A stretch of 42,920 nt of DNA from a bacterium. Its GTDB lineage: Bacteria > Hydrothermota > Tepidihabitantia > B3-TA06. The DNA lies in contig JAAYVC010000005.1 of the NCBI GenBank assembly GCA_012517375.1, positions 1 through 42,920 on the forward strand, read 5' to 3'. Each line of letters starts with the position of its first letter. Position 1 is the first letter of the stretch. The position numbers and the translations under genes were made by a program. Shown piece after piece: positions 456-8,342 of this stretch. The notes beneath the pieces were generated by a model that saw only the letters and a program-made list of their open reading frames with translations, made no database searches and was not told the origin of the DNA.

Positions 456-842
456 ATGAGTGAAAATTCTTTGGAATATCTGGTTGCTTGCACAGGATGT
501 GAATGCCAAATCTTATTCCTCACAGAAGCTAATGAATTCATGGCCGAAATAAAAAAAGACTATCCTAAGGACCACTTAGAACTAATGAAGATAATAAAGC
601 ATCTTTCAGAGTCAGGAAAGGTGATAAACCGAGAGAAGATGGAGCATATGGCTGGATTTAAAAATATTTGGGAAATGAAATCAAACAAAACAAGGCCATC
701 GAGGTTGTATGGATTTACGGATAAAATGGGGGTTCATGTAATAACCCATGGGAGTGAAAGACGTGAAGGGCAAGCCAGACGAAATGCAGAATTTGCAAAA
801 ACACAGCGGTACAAGAATCGCTGGGAAAAGGAGCATTCATAA
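456..842 (+). CDS. HigB-like toxin of a toxin-antitoxin-chaperone module
   Basis: 128 aa. The layout fits the HigB/RelE-like mRNA-interferase fold: an N-terminal strand (about 18-22), a helix of the type EFMAEIKKDYP, a second helix, then the strand region WEMKSNKTRPSRLYGF and VHVITHGSERR, matching the family pattern of an iWElr core followed by a late hGf.Kk element. Such toxins cleave ribosome-associated mRNA. The stop overlaps the next ATG (TAATG), giving translational coupling, in the toxin-first order typical of HigBA. The ATG at 456 has no ribosome-binding site and sits 4 bp after the -10, so translation is probably leaderless. Family assignment comes from pattern and context, not a database search. 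Confidence 0.75.
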   Translation: MSENSLEYLVACTGCECQILFLTEANEFMAEIKKDYPKDHLELMKIIKHLSESGKVINREKMEHMAGFKNIWEMKSNKTRPSRLYGFTDKMGVHVITHGSERREGQARRNAEFAKTQRYKNRWEKEHS

Positions 843-1315
843 TGAATAAGGGCGATCTTCAAGCGAAGTTAAACCAAGATTACGAGGAACTTATTAATAA
901 TGTTGAGTTCCATGTGGAGGGATTGAAGTTCGACTTTGCGGAAGAAGTTTCCAAATATCTTGGAAATGAAGAGGGGAAAGTAACACGAGCAGAACTTGCT
1001 CGTAGAATGGAAAGCACACCTGCGTGGATAACCAAAATGCTCCGTACCAATTGGAATATGACCATGGAAACCATGGCGAAAATAGCGTTCGCCTTAGGTA
1101 TGAAGGTTGAAACAAAGTTAGTTCGGATTAATGATGTTTCTTCTCGATTAGTCTATCATGAAAAAGATAATTGGGCAAAAATCCCGGTGGAATCTTCGCA
1201 TAAAAAACCTCCCGTTATACCCAGAGAGAAACCATTGGAAGCGATTTTCCAACCATTAGTTGGAGAAGTGGATTTCGAGAATATGCCCAACTATGAGGAA
1301 GCTTTAGTAGCATGA
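842..1315 (+). CDS. XRE/HigA-like antitoxin with C-terminal extension
   Basis: 157 aa. A helix-turn-helix covers about residues 45-90 (TRAELARRMESTPAWITKML, then a MAKIAFALGMKVE recognition-helix tail), as in Cro/C1-type HigA antitoxins. It should bind DNA and neutralise the toxin at 456. About 65 residues follow the HTH, rich in Pro, Lys and aromatics, with Trp near residue 117. In the M. tuberculosis TAC system such an extension (ChAD) makes the antitoxin depend on its SecB-like chaperone, and the same role is inferred here. It overlaps the toxin by 1 bp and the chaperone by 4 bp (ATGA). Confidence 0.8.
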   Translation: MNKGDLQAKLNQDYEELINNVEFHVEGLKFDFAEEVSKYLGNEEGKVTRAELARRMESTPAWITKMLRTNWNMTMETMAKIAFALGMKVETKLVRINDVSSRLVYHEKDNWAKIPVESSHKKPPVIPREKPLEAIFQPLVGEVDFENMPNYEEALVA

Positions 1316-1809
1316 AGCGATCACCGTTACAAGTCGAAACTTACTTCCTGCACGAGCTTTCCTTTGAAGTTAGTGAAGAGTACGATGATAGAAAGCCCGT
1401 TAGTGATAACTCCACGAGTTTTCAATATTTTATGGATTTTGGGTGCCATGATGTCAAAAAACACAAGTGGTTTTGTGCTTTGGGTGTTCGGTTTAAACCT
1501 GAAGTGAATGATAATGCCCCCTATTCTTATAAAGTCGTCCTTATAGGTTATTTTAAGGTAGAGGGTAATATCCCAAGCAAGGAAGCTGAAGAAAAACTAG
1601 TTCACGCCAATGCGCCTGCCCTTCTATATACAGTAGCTCGTGAAATTCTTTCATCGGTTTCGGCCAGTGCACGCTGGGGTCGCATCATTTTGCCTACGGT
1701 TTATTTCCCTGCAGTAACCTCTGCGGAGCTGAATTCTCCAAAAAGCGAACGAACTACTTCCTCTTCCGCCAAGTCAAAATCTAAAGTTTTAAAGGCACAA
1801 AAGAGTTAG
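1312..1809 (+). CDS. SecB-like chaperone of TAC module
   Basis: 165 aa. The N-terminal stretch LQVETYFLHELSFE matches the opening strand of SecB (FQIQRIYTKDISFE in E. coli). Residues about 98-132 (ANAPALLYTVAREILSSVSA, then RIILPTVYFP) match the conserved SecB region CPNILFPYAREC...LAPVNF. The last 30 residues are a Ser/Lys-rich tail. SecB holds proteins unfolded. A solitary SecB-like protein overlapping a HigA-type gene is the arrangement of Rv1957 in the M. tuberculosis TAC operon, where it protects the antitoxin. No other Sec gene is nearby, which favours the TAC role over general export. Confidence in the SecB fold is good; the partner role is inferred. Confidence 0.82.
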   Translation: MKRSPLQVETYFLHELSFEVSEEYDDRKPVSDNSTSFQYFMDFGCHDVKKHKWFCALGVRFKPEVNDNAPYSYKVVLIGYFKVEGNIPSKEAEEKLVHANAPALLYTVAREILSSVSASARWGRIILPTVYFPAVTSAELNSPKSERTTSSSAKSKSKVLKAQKS

Positions 1810-2588: not shown

Positions 2589-3965
2589 ATGGCCCGCAGC
2601 AGCCTCTATTCCCTGATCGCAGGAAACAAGTGGAAGACGTTCGGATTCGTCTTCCTCTTTTCCATAATCGTCATCCTCATCGGACTTGCTATAGGCTGGT
2701 GGTTCGAATGGGGCATAGGCGCCTGGGCTATTTTCGGAATCGCCCTTATCGGATACAACCTCATATTCTACTTCGCGTCCAAGAAGATAGCGCTTTTCGC
2801 AAACGGTGCCAGGCGGGCGGACCCGGAGCAGTACAAGAAGCTTTACAACGTCGTTGAGGAGATGTCCATTGCGTCCGGTCAGCCAATGCCCGAGGTCTAC
2901 ATCGTAGATGACCCCTCGCCCAACGCGTTCGCGACAGGCCGCAATCCGAAGAACGCGGCCGTAGCGGTCACTACCGGTCTCTACGAGATGCTCGACCGCG
3001 CCGAGCTTCAGGGCGTCATCGCGCACGAGATGAGCCACATAAAGAACTACGACATCCTTCTAATGACAGTGATAGCCATAATGGTCGGGTTCATCGTGCT
3101 TGCGCGCGACGTGTTCTGGCGCTGGGGTTTCGTGTTCGGCGGAAGGGGCCGGCGCTCGTCCGGCGGAAAGGGAGGAGGCTACGCAATGCTCATCCTCCTC
3201 GCGGTTGGAATCGTCCTCGCAATCGTCGCGCCGCTTCTGGTAGCCCTTATCCGTGCCGCCATATCCAGGCAGCGCGAATACCTTGCCGACGCATCAGGCG
3301 CCATGATGACGCGCAACCCCGAGGGGCTTGCAAGCGCACTCGAAAAGATAGGCGGCGTATACCAGAAGGTCCAGCGCTCGTCGAGCGCGACCGCGCACCT
3401 CTTCATCGCCTCGCCCGCGTGCAAGGACAGATTGAATCCCGCTAAGCCTCAACGCCAGATAAAAGCCGGCGCTTTCGATACCCACCCGCCCATCCCGCTG
3501 CGCGTCGAGCGTCTGCGCCAGCTTACACTCGACGGCGAGTACGCACAGCAGTTTGCATGGGCAGCAGCCCAGCCCCAAACGTCTGCTGCGCAGCCGTTTG
3601 GGGACTCCTCTCTTAACCTCAAAAACTCGCAGAGCGACTTTTCGGGGACCCCATCTTTGTCGTCAAGCGCCATTCAATCAACTGCTCCTGTCCCGGCCGC
3701 CCACCCGAGTCCAACCCCCTCCACCTCCGCCGGGATTTCTCCTTCAACTCCAGCCGAACCCGCTCAGCCACAATCCCCTAACCGCGGCTCTGAACCGCCG
3801 TCTGCGCCAGCATCCAACCAGCCGCCTACCGCTCCTTCACAAAACGAGCCGCCCTCGCCTCAACCCCAAACGAATACTTCGCATTCGTCCGCGGACCCCA
3901 CTTCCTCGTCCTCCTCCTCCAAAAAAGAAGGCGACTGGCTGGACGACTATCTCAAGAAGACTTGA
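2589..3965 (+). CDS. htpX: HtpX-like M48 membrane metalloprotease with long Pro/Ser tail
   Basis: 458 aa, against about 280-300 for typical HtpX. It has two N-terminal membrane helices (about 15-40 and 45-63) and the zinc motif HEMSH (H146-E147...H150) followed by KNYD. A helix pair follows after about residue 155, and the third ligand region REYLADASGA is near 228-238. M48 proteases degrade misfolded membrane proteins. From about residue 325 the chain becomes a disordered Pro/Ser/Thr/Gln-rich tail of some 130 residues ending KKEGDWLDDYLKKT. An AAGGAGG box precedes the ATG. The 3' end overlaps the convergent restriction gene by 14 bp. Confidence 0.92.
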   Translation: MARSSLYSLIAGNKWKTFGFVFLFSIIVILIGLAIGWWFEWGIGAWAIFGIALIGYNLIFYFASKKIALFANGARRADPEQYKKLYNVVEEMSIASGQPMPEVYIVDDPSPNAFATGRNPKNAAVAVTTGLYEMLDRAELQGVIAHEMSHIKNYDILLMTVIAIMVGFIVLARDVFWRWGFVFGGRGRRSSGGKGGGYAMLILLAVGIVLAIVAPLLVALIRAAISRQREYLADASGAMMTRNPEGLASALEKIGGVYQKVQRSSSATAHLFIASPACKDRLNPAKPQRQIKAGAFDTHPPIPLRVERLRQLTLDGEYAQQFAWAAAQPQTSAAQPFGDSSLNLKNSQSDFSGTPSLSSSAIQSTAPVPAAHPSPTPSTSAGISPSTPAEPAQPQSPNRGSEPPSAPASNQPPTAPSQNEPPSPQPQTNTSHSSADPTSSSSSSKKEGDWLDDYLKKT

Positions 3966-5052
3966 GCAACTCTGCCCAGTCGCGGCGATCTTTAATTGTT
4001 GAATGGGAATCTAGAACTTTTCCTACCTCCTCAAGGAATTCCCTCCGACCCTTTTCCCCGAAAAGAGTCAATAAAACCGGGGCAAATTCCGTTAAGCTGA
4101 AGATGTATATGTTTTGACCGCTTGCAAACTCCTTGTCGCGCAGGGATTCGATTTTTGAAATATCCTCACCTGCAATGCCCTTTTGAGCAATGAACAATAA
4201 CTCCGAAACGCTATGAGACCGAACCTTGGGCATTTTTGCTTGTACCTGACTGATGGTCAATTGCTTATCCCGGACCTCGACCGCGAGAGCGATCTCGCCA
4301 TTCTTGTCAAGACATTCGATATCCGCAACAAGACCGGAGCTTGCGTCTGAAGCGTTTATATTCAACCGTCGTACTTCAGCATAGAGACTGAAGAGCTTAC
4401 CGGCAGTTCTTAAAAGAGCGGTCGTCAGGGACAGAACACGATCTCCGCCTGCTCCGTATCTAATGAAATTTTGGATTAAGTTATCAGCTTGAGCAAGACT
4501 TATTCGTTTGGGTACAGAATAGGTTACTTTGACCTGTGATAACCTCTGGTAAATTTCCGCAAGCACAGCCTGTAGCAATGCAAGAGTCAAAACCGGATCA
4601 TTCTTGGATTCAACCTCTTGAAGTATAAAAGAAAGGTCATCCCATCCGGCCTTGTCTTTTTGTTGGTGGCGGTACTTGCTTGTTACTTCTGGTCTACGCA
4701 GAGGGTTATTAACATAAGGTTCTGGGGATCCACCCAAAACGCATTCGTTTGCCTGATCGAATGGAACAACTACATCGTGGCATACAGAGCGTGCGTCAAA
4801 GGCACCTTTACCTCCCCGGCTTGCTTGCAAGCATTTACTGTCGAGGGATGAATCGGCTAATTTGGCTAAAAGTTGAGTAGGAAGGACATAGCGGTAACTC
4901 TTGGTGTCACTGTTTATTGCCCTTTTCACTGCTTCCTTAATTTTTTCGGGAAGGGTTATCTTTAAATGTCCCTCTGCCTTAACTACATGGTTCCACTCTT
5001 TATCCAGTATGGAACGACATTTTTCTTCGAATTCACTTAGAGTCGGGTTCAT
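3952..5052 (-). CDS. Putative type II restriction endonuclease, SacI family-like
   Basis: 366 aa. I recognise a resemblance to the SacI restriction endonuclease family, especially the central stretch FDARSVCHDVVVPFDQANE / GGSPEPYVNNPLRRPEV (about 87-122). A likely nuclease core follows: ADIECLDKNGEIALAVEVRD (about 245-263), a D...E-V-R strand pair resembling a PD-(D/E)xK site. The gene overlaps the upstream adenine methylase by 20 bp on the same strand, the standard restriction-modification layout. Specificity cannot be read from sequence. GAGCTC is present in the window (for example near 8884 and 11101), so there is no obvious avoidance of the SacI site. Family assignment is from memory of the motif. 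Confidence 0.68.
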   Translation of the reverse strand: MNPTLSEFEEKCRSILDKEWNHVVKAEGHLKITLPEKIKEAVKRAINSDTKSYRYVLPTQLLAKLADSSLDSKCLQASRGGKGAFDARSVCHDVVVPFDQANECVLGGSPEPYVNNPLRRPEVTSKYRHQQKDKAGWDDLSFILQEVESKNDPVLTLALLQAVLAEIYQRLSQVKVTYSVPKRISLAQADNLIQNFIRYGAGGDRVLSLTTALLRTAGKLFSLYAEVRRLNINASDASSGLVADIECLDKNGEIALAVEVRDKQLTISQVQAKMPKVRSHSVSELLFIAQKGIAGEDISKIESLRDKEFASGQNIYIFSLTEFAPVLLTLFGEKGRREFLEEVGKVLDSHSTIKDRRDWAELLKSS

Positions 5053-5905
5053 AGTTTGTCCAGAGGGCTTCCTGTCGGGGTTTCTTTATGGAGTGGCACA
5101 TTTTTTCCGGCGCATCCAAACGCCGCCACTCGACGTATAAATCATCCATAATCTCGCAGCGGTAGCCTGAGATGGCAACTTTTCCCTTGCACTTTTTGAG
5201 AACCTTCGCCAATGCAATATGGTCGGCGGTAGTCATCTCGAAACCATAGGCGTTAATATCGCCTCGGCTTTCGTGCGGATAAGGAGGGTCGCAGTAGAAA
5301 AGCGTATCTTTGCTATCGTAAAGCTGGATAACTTCTATCGCCGGTCGGTTTTCAATCTGTACTCTTAAAAGCCTTTCGGCAATATTCGGAAGGGCTTCAA
5401 CGCTTCCAAGCCACCGTGAAACAACACCTGACATCCCGGCACGACTTGTATTCTTGCAGTTTGCCCACCTGCCTATAGAAGCCTTCTGTGCAAGACCGGT
5501 TCTTACTTGCCGCGCACGGACGAAGAAGCGTCTTGCTCTTTCGAGGTCAGATAAGCCCTCTCTGGATTCGGATATAGCAAGAGCAAACTCCTCTCTTGAG
5601 AATGGTGTAAGGCCTATGGCTTCAATAAGGACGTCTTTCTGGTTGCGAAGAACGCGGAAAAAATTGACTACTTCGCCATCTATGTCGTTATACGTTTCAA
5701 CAGGGGATGGGGGGCGATTCAAGAGCACCGCCGCTGACCCGCCGAAAGGTTCGCAGTAGTGATGAACTTCCGGCAGGTGCGGGAGAAGCCAGTTAAGGTG
5801 GTTGAATTTACCGCCGTACCATCCGAACGCAATCATTTTTTTACCGTTGCGGCGAGTGGTTTGAGGTATAAGGATCCCTTTCGATATGGAAGTCTGACCC
5901 ATCAT
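5033..5905 (-). CDS. D12-class DNA N6-adenine methyltransferase
   Basis: 290 aa. Residues about 25-33 hold FGWYGGK, the Dam-type AdoMet-binding motif, followed by YCEPFGGSAAVLLNR (about 52-66). DTLFYCDPPYPHESR near 200 carries the DPPY catalytic motif. It should methylate adenine and protect host DNA from the overlapping restriction enzyme downstream. The ATG at 5905 lies 3 bp after a good -10, so either the message is leaderless or the start is the internal ATG at 5836, immediately before the conserved domain; neither has a ribosome-binding site. Dam-clade enzymes often modify GATC, but specificity here is unknown. Confidence 0.9.
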   Translation of the reverse strand: MMGQTSISKGILIPQTTRRNGKKMIAFGWYGGKFNHLNWLLPHLPEVHHYCEPFGGSAAVLLNRPPSPVETYNDIDGEVVNFFRVLRNQKDVLIEAIGLTPFSREEFALAISESREGLSDLERARRFFVRARQVRTGLAQKASIGRWANCKNTSRAGMSGVVSRWLGSVEALPNIAERLLRVQIENRPAIEVIQLYDSKDTLFYCDPPYPHESRGDINAYGFEMTTADHIALAKVLKKCKGKVAISGYRCEIMDDLYVEWRRLDAPEKMCHSIKKPRQEALWTNYEPDSK

Positions 5906-5908
5906 CTA

Positions 5909-5936
5909 ATAATAAGTGTTTACAATCTTAAGTCAA
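5909..5936 (-). promoter_or_regulatory. Promoter of restriction-modification operon
   Basis: Reading the minus strand, the -35 TTGACT is at 5936-5931 and the -10 TATTAT at 5914-5909, with a 16-bp spacer. Three bases then separate the -10 from the ATG at 5905. Confidence 0.65.
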
Positions 5937-5947
5937 GCGTTTACCTG

Positions 5948-5986
5948 ACCTCATCGCTTCCCAGGTGGCAGGGCAATTATCCCTGC
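5948..5986. repeat. 25-bp repeat copy with adjoining hairpin
   Basis: 5948-5972 matches 6887-6911 at 24 of 25 positions (core CGCTTCCCAGGTGGCAGG). The second copy lies inside the 3' end of the gene at 6843. GCAGGG (5968-5973) and CCCTGC (5981-5986) form a 6-bp stem that begins in the repeat and could end transcription from the lipoprotein gene upstream on the minus strand, though no T-tract follows. Read on the minus strand this copy encodes CPATWEAMR, resembling GPATWEAIR in the gene, so it may be a remnant of a duplicated 3' end. Confidence 0.55.
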
Positions 5987-6045
5987 GACTTAATCTTTTA
6001 CTTTAAGGGACCAGACCTTTTCAGGGTTGATGAGTGGGAGGACGC

Positions 6046-6813
6046 CTACTCGCCCTTGCCGGGGTAGCGAATAGAGTCGGGATTAATAGGGTATCGCGAC
6101 CAGTCGGGATGGGGTTCGTCCATCCACACCCAGTGAGCCTCGAGCCAGCGCCACCAGTCAGACGAGGGTCCCAAAAACTGGGGGCTGGTTCGGCATTTTG
6201 CCTTTATACGGTAGATAATGCCTTTGCGCTCGAAAAAGACTTCTGTCGCGTATTCCATCCACTGATTTGTTTCCTGGTATACGAGCATTGCGTACTGACA
6301 GAAGACCTTTGCAGGCAGTTCCCTGAAGGTCGCATCGAATGAAGTGTCCCACTGGGCTTCGCGAGAGAATCTGAACCACTCGCCTGCCGTATGCTGCACG
6401 GGTTTCCCAAGAGTATCCAGAGGAAGATGATACCAGAAGATGCTGATTGAACCATCGGGCATGAATTCGCCGGAAGGTACGTAATTAACCTCGTAGGTGA
6501 TTTCGCCTCTCGTAGAATCTCCTGCAATATCGGATGGTACAATAAAGGTGGTGGCCTTGAAATAGTCGTGGATTTCCATGTCTACGGGGTGAAGAATACC
6601 CAGGGTATCTGAATCCCTAATCCAGAATGGGCGCGAGTGCATGAAGTCATAGTTTTCTTTGTCGCCGGGGCATGGGTCGAACTCCTCGTAGAGAAATGTG
6701 GGATAAAATCTGCATCCCTCGTGAAACCCCTTCGTTAAAGCCTTTTGCGGCGGTTTGCAGCTAGCGGCGAGTAAAAGCATGAACACAACAAAGTAACCGC
6801 ATGTTTTCTTCAT
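6046..6813 (-). CDS. Hypothetical lipoprotein
   Basis: 255 aa of unrecognised family. A short signal peptide ends in the lipobox LAASC (Cys about 19), so the mature protein is probably a lipid-anchored envelope protein. The rest is rich in aromatic and acidic residues with no motif I can name (for example FYPTFLYEEFDPCPGD). The ATG at 6813 is 5 bp after a strong -10 and lacks a ribosome-binding site, suggesting leaderless translation. It lies downstream of the minus-strand gene at 6843 but has its own promoter. Confidence 0.8.
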   Translation of the reverse strand: MKKTCGYFVVFMLLLAASCKPPQKALTKGFHEGCRFYPTFLYEEFDPCPGDKENYDFMHSRPFWIRDSDTLGILHPVDMEIHDYFKATTFIVPSDIAGDSTRGEITYEVNYVPSGEFMPDGSISIFWYHLPLDTLGKPVQHTAGEWFRFSREAQWDTSFDATFRELPAKVFCQYAMLVYQETNQWMEYATEVFFERKGIIYRIKAKCRTSPQFLGPSSDWWRWLEAHWVWMDEPHPDWSRYPINPDSIRYPGKGE

Positions 6814-6818
6814 GCGTA

Positions 6819-6846
6819 ATGATAGCAGAAACGTTCAGCTTGTCAA
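6819..6846 (-). promoter_or_regulatory. Promoter of the lipoprotein at 6813
   Basis: On the minus strand TTGACA lies at 6846-6841 and TATCAT at 6824-6819, with a 16-bp spacer. The -10 is followed by 5 bp and then the ATG. The -35 overlaps the last codons of the upstream gene. Confidence 0.7.
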
Positions 6847-8183
6847 GTCGCTTTTGCCCATTTCTTATATAAATCGGGACAAAAAAACCTTATCGCTTCC
6901 CAGGTGGCAGGACCGCAGATGGCCTCGTGCTTTTCTTCCTTCATCTCAGCAAGGAGCGCTTTCTCTTTTTGCGCCCAGAGTTCGTCGTTCGTCCAGTCGT
7001 TCGGATTGGTTGTATAAAGTCTTCGGTAGTAATGCTTTGCATTGTCCTTATCATTCAGGTTTTTGATTGCATAGTCCTGAAAGTATCGCAGGAGACGGTG
7101 AACGGTGTCGTAGTCGAACACTCCCCACTGCGGTTCGGGTTCGGGACTTCCGCGCCATTCCCATAAAATACGCTGCATCTTCTCGACCCAGCCTGGCGTG
7201 TTGCGCCAGAGTGAGTGAACAACTTTTGTGTCGCGTGACGCAAAGTGAAGCTCGGGCGTTTCAAGCCTTGCCTCGCGCACTCTCGTCACCCTGCTGCGCT
7301 TGTATTTAATGTAGTCTACGCCCGGCCAGATGGTCACTGGAATCTCGGTTTTTGCCCCTGATGGTCCGCCGTGCATGTATGCCGTGAGCATGAAGAGCCT
7401 GTAGCGGTCGCAGGAACCTCCCTGGATGTTTATGCATCCTGTTGAGCCTCCGCCGACTATGGATGCGTTGCCCTTGTGGATGTTCGTGTATTTAAGGTTC
7501 TCCTTGACTTCGTTCTCATTGTATTCGCGCTGCGCTGCGGGCTTCCTCCATCCGTACGTTTGGTTTCCTTCTCTGGTTGTTGGCAGAAGAGCCGAGTATC
7601 TGGACGAGGTGCCGACATGTACGCCTCTCCTGTAGGCGTGCTGGCCGAAGCCAAGCTGAGCGGTGCCTTCCTTGTTATCGGAGTTCGAGCCGGGGTTGAC
7701 GGTTGCAGGAAAGACGTGCACGTGGTCGCCGGGCGTAAGAAAGTGGTTCTCCCATTTTTTTAAAACATCATCCGTGACGCCAAGGTTGGGATCAGATGTA
7801 ACCGGTTGAACGAGCGTGGGAACTAAAAGCCCAAGACGCTCTGCGCGGCTTTGCGATGCGTTGGCATCATATACGCTTACAGTATCTTGGGGTACTCTGT
7901 ATCGCAGTATCACCGAGTCGTCGAACTGACCGAACCTGTTCTCAACGAGCTTTATTTCTGCGCCCGCGCCCGAAAGATAGGCTTCCTTGTCCGCAACTTT
8001 TACCCCTTGCAGCGCCAGGATGTTTATGAAGTAGTCGTCGGTCGGATGGTAGGCTCCAATATAATCCATGAAGCCGTCAAAATACTCCGCGGTTATTGTG
8101 GATTCGTAGCCGAACCACAAGCCGTATACTCCGGGATCGAGCTGATTGTCTCCCAGGATGTTTTTGTCATTGTTTTCTGCCAT
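6843..8183 (-). CDS. Hypothetical protein with YkuD-like SxGCxN motif
   Basis: 446 aa. About residues 235-253 read NIHKGNASIVGGGSTGCINI. A His followed about 14 residues later by S-T-G-C-I-N resembles the H...S-x-G-C-x-N/R active site of L,D-transpeptidases (YkuD) and of phage-type DUF5675-like proteins. If so, the Cys would be catalytic in peptidoglycan cross-linking or hydrolysis. No signal peptide or membrane helix is visible, which is odd for a cell-wall enzyme and leaves a phage-like or injected-effector role possible. The C-terminus ends CGPATWEAIRFFCPDLY. The N-terminal 130 residues resemble nothing I know. The start ATG at 8183 follows a GATAAT-like -10 but no clear -35. Confidence 0.6.
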   Translation of the reverse strand: MAENNDKNILGDNQLDPGVYGLWFGYESTITAEYFDGFMDYIGAYHPTDDYFINILALQGVKVADKEAYLSGAGAEIKLVENRFGQFDDSVILRYRVPQDTVSVYDANASQSRAERLGLLVPTLVQPVTSDPNLGVTDDVLKKWENHFLTPGDHVHVFPATVNPGSNSDNKEGTAQLGFGQHAYRRGVHVGTSSRYSALLPTTREGNQTYGWRKPAAQREYNENEVKENLKYTNIHKGNASIVGGGSTGCINIQGGSCDRYRLFMLTAYMHGGPSGAKTEIPVTIWPGVDYIKYKRSRVTRVREARLETPELHFASRDTKVVHSLWRNTPGWVEKMQRILWEWRGSPEPEPQWGVFDYDTVHRLLRYFQDYAIKNLNDKDNAKHYYRRLYTTNPNDWTNDELWAQKEKALLAEMKEEKHEAICGPATWEAIRFFCPDLYKKWAKAT

Positions 8184-8265
8184 GCTGAGATTATCCGCAA
8201 AACCCTGACGCGAGCCATTGAAGACTGACTGATTAATTTTAACGGAATCCGGTTTGCACTACCCG

Positions 8266-8293
8266 TTGACTTGACATCCAAGGACGTTATACT
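8266..8293 (+). promoter_or_regulatory. metK operon promoter
   Basis: TTGACT (8266-8271) and TATACT (8288-8293) are separated by 16 bp. A leader of about 40 nt carries AAAGGAGG (8329-8336) before the TTG start at 8343. The leader is too short for an S-adenosylmethionine riboswitch and none is visible. Confidence 0.7.
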
Positions 8294-8342
8294 CCACGAA
8301 TATTTTTTATAAATGCCAATCCTCTTTGAAAGGAGGCAGTAA

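Follow-up and report, generated by a model that had tools for sequence, protein, structure and literature searches.

The restriction endonuclease EcoT38I, which is at home in a P2 prophage, recognizes GRGCYC. In the SacI restriction-modification (R-M) system (R.SacI/M.SacI, site GAGCTC), the endonuclease belongs to Pfam family PF09566 and, its partner M.SacI is a cytosine-5 (C5) methylase acting on GAGCTC (PMC4725820), a pairing that a preliminary description of the locus studied here had given correctly. Here, we analyzed a predicted type II R-M operon in a 42,920-nucleotide (nt) stretch of contig JAAYVC010000005.1 (assembly GCA_012517375.1), the whole of which is called the window below. Its endonuclease is of the same family as that of the SacI system, but its methylase, encoded upstream on the same strand and overlapping it, is predicted to be an adenine methylase of the D12 class (Table 1). 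We consider it likely that the pair belongs to a mobile type II R-M operon in which at least three diverged endonuclease clades have been exchanged behind one methylase lineage.

The window endonuclease matched a single Pfam family, RE_SacI (PF09566; E = 4.7e-38; 132.1 bits against a cut-off of 19.3; positions 12 to 274 of the 276 in the profile), in agreement with the SacI-like assignment first proposed for it. PADLOC also recognized it as a type II restriction endonuclease (2.1e-17), and EcoT38I (PDB 7e8r and 7edb) was its sole sequence relative in the PDB (2.3e-15; 8.3e-27 with the clade profile). In comparisons of an AlphaFold model made from 14 relatives (pLDDT 89.1, pTM 0.68), EcoT38I was again the top match, both by Foldseek against the PDB (7edb; 2.6e-16, with a TM score of only 0.40 to 0.45) and by VIA-align (Z of 26.1 over 338 residues at 21% identity, with an rmsd of 15.8). 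Lower VIA-align matches (Z < 10), among them LlaBIII, FokI, and MspJI but also RNA polymerase subunits, covered approximately residues 183 to 350, the predicted C-terminal PD-(D/E)XK domain. The full-length predicted fold and the D...E catalytic positions are common to EcoT38I and the window enzyme, and the profile match and the model together confirm the latter as a SacI-family endonuclease with a predicted EcoT38I-like fold.

The partner, which the preliminary description had called an N6-adenine (DPPY) enzyme, matched the MethyltransfD12 profile (PF02086; 1.5e-23; 84.3 bits against a cut-off of 22), PADLOC MTase_II (1.2e-54), and PHROG 56 (1e-66), and matched no C5 methylase family in the Pfam search. 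It has the MethyltransfD12 profile and the DPPY motif in common with Dam/DpnM-type methylases but falls below the NCBIfam cut-off for Dam (70 versus 115 bits), and D12 structures in the PDB matched it only weakly by sequence (best, 2.3e-6). These profile matches confirm the predicted identity of the partner as a D12/DPPY adenine methylase. A second, distant D12 methylase is encoded elsewhere in the window's genome (G000:C19, 4303 to 4905; 31% identical to that of the window).

With the methylase alignment as query, at least 539 relatives were confirmed in a genome collection, of which the best 80, that is, the nearest ones, were analyzed. An intact SacI-family endonuclease lay on the same strand directly downstream at 56 of these 80 loci (gap of −115 to +32 nt). 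The others held a partial or broken endonuclease (10 loci, at least 2 of them near the end of the available sequence), an endonuclease on the opposite strand (3 loci), or none despite sufficient room (9 loci), or were at the sequence end (2 loci). Carriers included members of the Acidobacteriota, Planctomycetota, Chloroflexota, Bacillota, Pseudomonadota, Cyanobacteriota, Armatimonadota, Nitrospirota, and Zixibacteria as well as a micrarchaeon. On viral contigs, the pair was present at 8 of 27 methylase loci, and at 8 of the 17 where the methylase was at least 56% identical. The linked endonuclease and methylase are conserved as a pair, and this is a widespread type of R-M system, not an odd local case. 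It is already visible to automatic annotation: Halorussus caseinilyticus plasmid NZ_CP119811.1 carries a DNA adenine methylase and a "restriction endonuclease, SacI family," the same pair in the same order. Among the matches listed in searches of open-access literature, which did not extend to subscription papers or REBASE, no paper described a D12-partnered SacI-family enzyme.

The endonuclease tree (80 rows, with EcoT38I and SacI themselves left out) contained three deep D12-linked clades, termed W (with the window enzyme; 14 rows, 98/99), B (28 rows, 98/93), and C (26 rows, 100/100), together with a C5-linked clade and a haloarchaeal pair. Clade members include the enzymes of Sulfobacillus thermotolerans Kr1 (W), Nitrosospira multiformis Nl18 (B), and Nostoc flagelliforme (C). 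The W fork also holds L108; neither this row nor L119, whose branches are both very long, is included in the clade counts, and L008 has no visible partner. Our endonuclease profile came from repeated rounds of building on its own matches, and independent checks were provided by Pfam, in which all 14 W enzymes matched RE_SacI, and by profile comparison (W-B, 99.9%; W-C, 96.9%). Family counts by Pfam alone are lower bounds, since RE_SacI misses 6 of the 28 B enzymes and 12 of the 26 C enzymes at E ≤ 0.01, as well as the C enzyme of genome G007. In one B-type locus (L004, 334 to 1479), the gene directly upstream of the endonuclease encodes a fusion in which the D12 methylase follows a UPF0758 N-terminal domain (7.3e-20), which we take to be RadC-type.

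The clades were first labeled on the endonuclease tree, and the methylase tree (71 rows) was made afterwards. On the methylase tree, the labels required 10 changes, compared with a minimum of 2 and a shuffled mean of 30.5; because 10 is below the shuffled mean, the endonuclease labels are still clustered there. A single methylase clade W was rejected (approximately unbiased [AU] test, P = 0.00039), and two Terriglobia W methylases grouped with four acidobacterial B methylases at 99/96. Mean identity between clades was 67 to 72% for the methylase and 16 to 22% for the endonuclease (43 to 54% within endonuclease clades). For W and B, the methylase identity between clades (71.9%) was close to that among W members (73.0%) and among B members (72.7%), while the endonuclease identity was far lower between clades (21.4%) than within them (42.6 and 46.7%, respectively). 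The rejection of W, the mixed Terriglobia-acidobacterial group, and the W-B identities all argue against an explanation without exchange, in which the endonuclease merely evolves much faster and the methylase tree looks mixed from poor resolution, and we regard that explanation as unlikely. Within the window's phylum, five genomes with a methylase at least 67% identical carried endonucleases of clade W (G000, the window's own genome, and G001), clade B (G119), or clade C (G007 and G043, the latter divided between two contig ends). Within the family to which the window belongs, the G007 methylase is 69% identical to that of the window yet adjoins a clade C endonuclease, while G000 and G001 have clade W enzymes. 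Taken from sequence comparison, these data support the idea that the nuclease gene was replaced behind a conserved methylase.

Several observations weigh against this reading, and the first two also favor the explanation without exchange. The methylase tree was poorly resolved (of 68 inner branches, 25 were starred and 24 open, and the bootstrap was not settled), and C as one methylase clade was not rejected (AU P = 0.184; the AU tests covered W and C); the number of exchanges is unsure for these two reasons. The link of clade C to PF09566 is weak, with 14 of 26 enzymes matching at E ≤ 0.01. The window endonuclease had no match in 50,697 phage records, and no motif was consistently avoided across carriers. 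Finally, because Arg261 replaces the ExK lysine in the window nuclease, its activity is uncertain; the enzyme may be impaired, or a neighboring basic residue may serve instead.

The catalytic region of the window enzyme reads D244...E259-V-R261-D-K263, so that the motif is EVRDK where EcoT38I has EVKDK. At position 261, lysine is present in 13 of the 14 W members, arginine being unique to the window enzyme, and in 26 of 26 C enzymes; threonine takes its place in 28 of 28 B enzymes, and the C5-linked rows have lysine in 7 of 8, with arginine in L224. It is conceivable that the window endonuclease is dead or weakened and that the locus is now methylase only, an interpretation to which we give little credence. 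The uniqueness of Arg261 in clade W and the apparently common loss of the endonuclease (the 9 loci with room but none detectable and the 10 with only a partial gene) speak for it. Conversely, the 366-amino-acid (aa) frame is intact, none of the 79 labeled rows departs from D244 or E259, and a basic residue occupies position 263 in all 77 rows of the W, B, C, haloarchaeal, and C5-linked groups (glutamine stands there in one of the two long rows outside the clades). In addition, L224 likewise reads EVRDK, and clade B, despite lacking the lysine, is conserved: it reads E-V-T-E-R for ExK (residues 252 to 256 of L054), with Thr254 and Arg256 unchanged across all 25 aligned rows, and the model of a clade B enzyme keeps the EcoT38I fold (pLDDT 89.8; PDB match, 1.4e-13).

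The preliminary description had further suggested a new specificity or a swapped modification subunit. In its most local form, a recent replacement of a cytosine by an adenine methylase in the window's genome, the swap seems to us highly improbable. Other SacI-family endonucleases do adjoin C5 methylases, and one such swap, in haloarchaea, is clear. However, all 14 W endonucleases in the tree, from several phyla, lie beside D12 methylases; the same pair recurs at most of the best methylase loci, on viral contigs, and on the Halorussus plasmid; and the nearest relative (G001, a genome of candidate division WOR-3) carries it as well (endonuclease 59% and methylase 81% identical to those of the window), which contradicts a swap at the window locus. 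C5-linked W members could be missed, because 12 of the 14 W endonucleases were reached via the methylase alone.

Partner change does occur elsewhere in the SacI family. Searches seeded with the endonuclease matched at least 4 of 147 genomes in the window's phylum (three beside D12, one cut by a contig end), at least 3 of 292 in the Nostoc phylum (two C5, one of them a fragment, and one D12), at least 4 of 398 in the Nitrosospira phylum (one C5, two D12, one without a visible partner), two plasmid records (one D12, from Halorussus, and one C5), and seven viral contigs (five adjoining a convergent C5 gene and the other two having no visible partner). C5 partners were assigned by motifs and confirmed by Pfam for L006, L007, L010, L221, and L224 (L222 is a fragment). 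The C5-linked endonuclease clade consists of viral contigs and two genomes, and the D12 label requires two changes on the endonuclease tree. The haloarchaeal endonucleases are sisters at 100/99 and 46% identical, that of Halorussus (26% identical to the window's) lying beside a D12 methylase and that of Haladaptatus beside a C5 methylase. Because these sisters adjoin different methylases, at least one switch in the chemistry of the protective mark has taken place in the SacI family in addition to the deep split. A tblastn search also showed that NZ_CP119811.1 contains another region resembling the endonuclease (two regions in the record).

In the exchange reading that we prefer, the D12 methylase would methylate adenine on both strands of a probably palindromic site, and the overlapping endonuclease, with its SacI-type PD-(D/E)XK fold, would cut the same site in unmethylated incoming DNA. 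Shared specificity would follow from the conservation of the methylase. Replacement of the endonuclease gene behind this methylase would then leave the host protected by N6-methyladenine (m6A) while the nuclease changes.

With an adenine methylase as the partner, adenine must be an obligatory base of the site; GAGCTC is compatible with this and GRGCYC, the EcoT38I site, is not. In 8 of 9 genome samples, GAGCTC fell short of expectation (0 to 0.81), but many palindromes did likewise; it ranked first among hexamers only in G147 and was above expectation (1.28) in Sulfobacillus G148, which carries a clade W enzyme like that of the window. In 299 kb sampled from the window's genome (L121 to L140), its observed/expected ratio was 0.80, with mixed results elsewhere. 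GAGCTC was rarer than the reversed control CTCGAG in 16 of 20 carrier genomes, and the same was seen in many WOR-3 genomes without the methylase. In genus g3, the methylase carrier G007 had 74 GAGCTC sites versus 378 to 614 in four relatives without a match, compared to 286 versus 381 to 484 for CTCGAG, a depletion that favors GAGCTC. Against this site, G003, in which no methylase was detected (81% complete), is as poor in it (267 in 2.5 Mb) as its congener G001 (319 in 3.3 Mb), and the carriers G043 and G119 show no depletion when compared with their genus. CTCGAG itself was considered as the site. In pooled locus DNA, it reached 0.41 of expectation in the 59 loci with an endonuclease open reading frame (ORF) of at least 250 aa and 0.52 in the other 21; it was dropped given this near-equal avoidance and the lack of any single motif in the nine-genome samples. 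Separately, GATC was strongly under-represented in the 299-kb sample (0.43 of expected), perhaps as the mark of another R-M system.

Table 1. Features of the R-M locus in the window
Feature	Position (nt)	Strand	Evidence or remark
SacI-family (PF09566) type II restriction endonuclease, 366 aa	3952-5052	−	Pfam, PDB sequence matches, AlphaFold model, catalytic columns
D12-class N6-adenine DNA methyltransferase, 290 aa, FYCDPPY	5033-5905	−	Pfam, PADLOC, PHROG
20-nt overlap between the 3' end of the methylase gene and the start of the endonuclease gene; two-gene operon	5033-5052	−	ORF coordinates
Promoter-like site TTGACT-16-TATTAT	5909-5936	−	Ends 3 nt before annotated methylase ATG
htpX-metK stretch; contains the R-M pair plus two genes lacking a Pfam match	3966-8342		4.4 kb

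The preliminary description had placed a promoter directly at the methylase start and inferred methylase-first expression. A promoter-like site is indeed present there (Table 1), and in the nearest relative (L041) a counterpart, TTGACT-16-TATGAT, stops 6 nt short of the methylase ATG; given these positions, the methylase mRNA of both may be leaderless or near-leaderless, or a downstream start may be used. The number of such sites in the window region (3, versus 1.6 ± 1.4 in shuffles) is not by itself above chance. Of 67 loci, 19 had a site matching at least 9 of 12 positions in the 200 nt that precede the conserved WYGGK motif, versus 6.7 expected from first-order shuffles. "Methylase first" holds as gene order in one apparent operon.

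In the window, htpX is followed by the R-M pair, two genes without a Pfam match, and metK (assigned by eye). metK directly follows htpX in three of seven relatives of the family (G005, G006, and G007), and other genes occupy that place in G001, G002, G003, and G004. In G001, the R-M pair is on the opposite side of the lemA-htpX genes, and the different positions fit an insertion in the same neighborhood or a rearrangement. Of the two genes without a Pfam match (6046 to 6813 and 6843 to 8183, both on the minus strand), the latter has an STGCI motif that, by eye, is reminiscent of L,D-transpeptidases. Farther away, three adjacent or overlapping genes (456 to 1809, plus strand) encode a 128-aa protein without a Pfam match, which is RelE/HigB-like by eye, a Cro/C1-type helix-turn-helix protein (2.5e-5), and a SecB-like protein (1.1e-8); the set looks like a toxin-antitoxin-chaperone module. 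Helix-turn-helix and SecB-like ORFs, recognized by eye, also occur near htpX in some relatives.

The pattern of nuclease exchange is more interesting than the window pair itself. We tentatively extend it to a reading that we hold at somewhat less than even confidence, in which the methylase would be a fixed chassis behind which deeply diverged, isospecific SacI-fold nucleases were repeatedly exchanged, including clade B with its altered active site, while the chemistry of the mark also switched (from 5-methylcytosine to m6A or back). If true, R-M operons would evolve by nuclease swapping behind a fixed methylation mark. Type II R-M genes are usually seen as a matched pair, whereas here three nuclease types share one methylase and two methylation chemistries are found with a single nuclease type, so that the survival of specificity and self-protection under a change of partner becomes directly testable. 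The broad group of m6A-partnered SacI relatives is also a source of candidate enzymes, in some of which the catalytic motif is altered.

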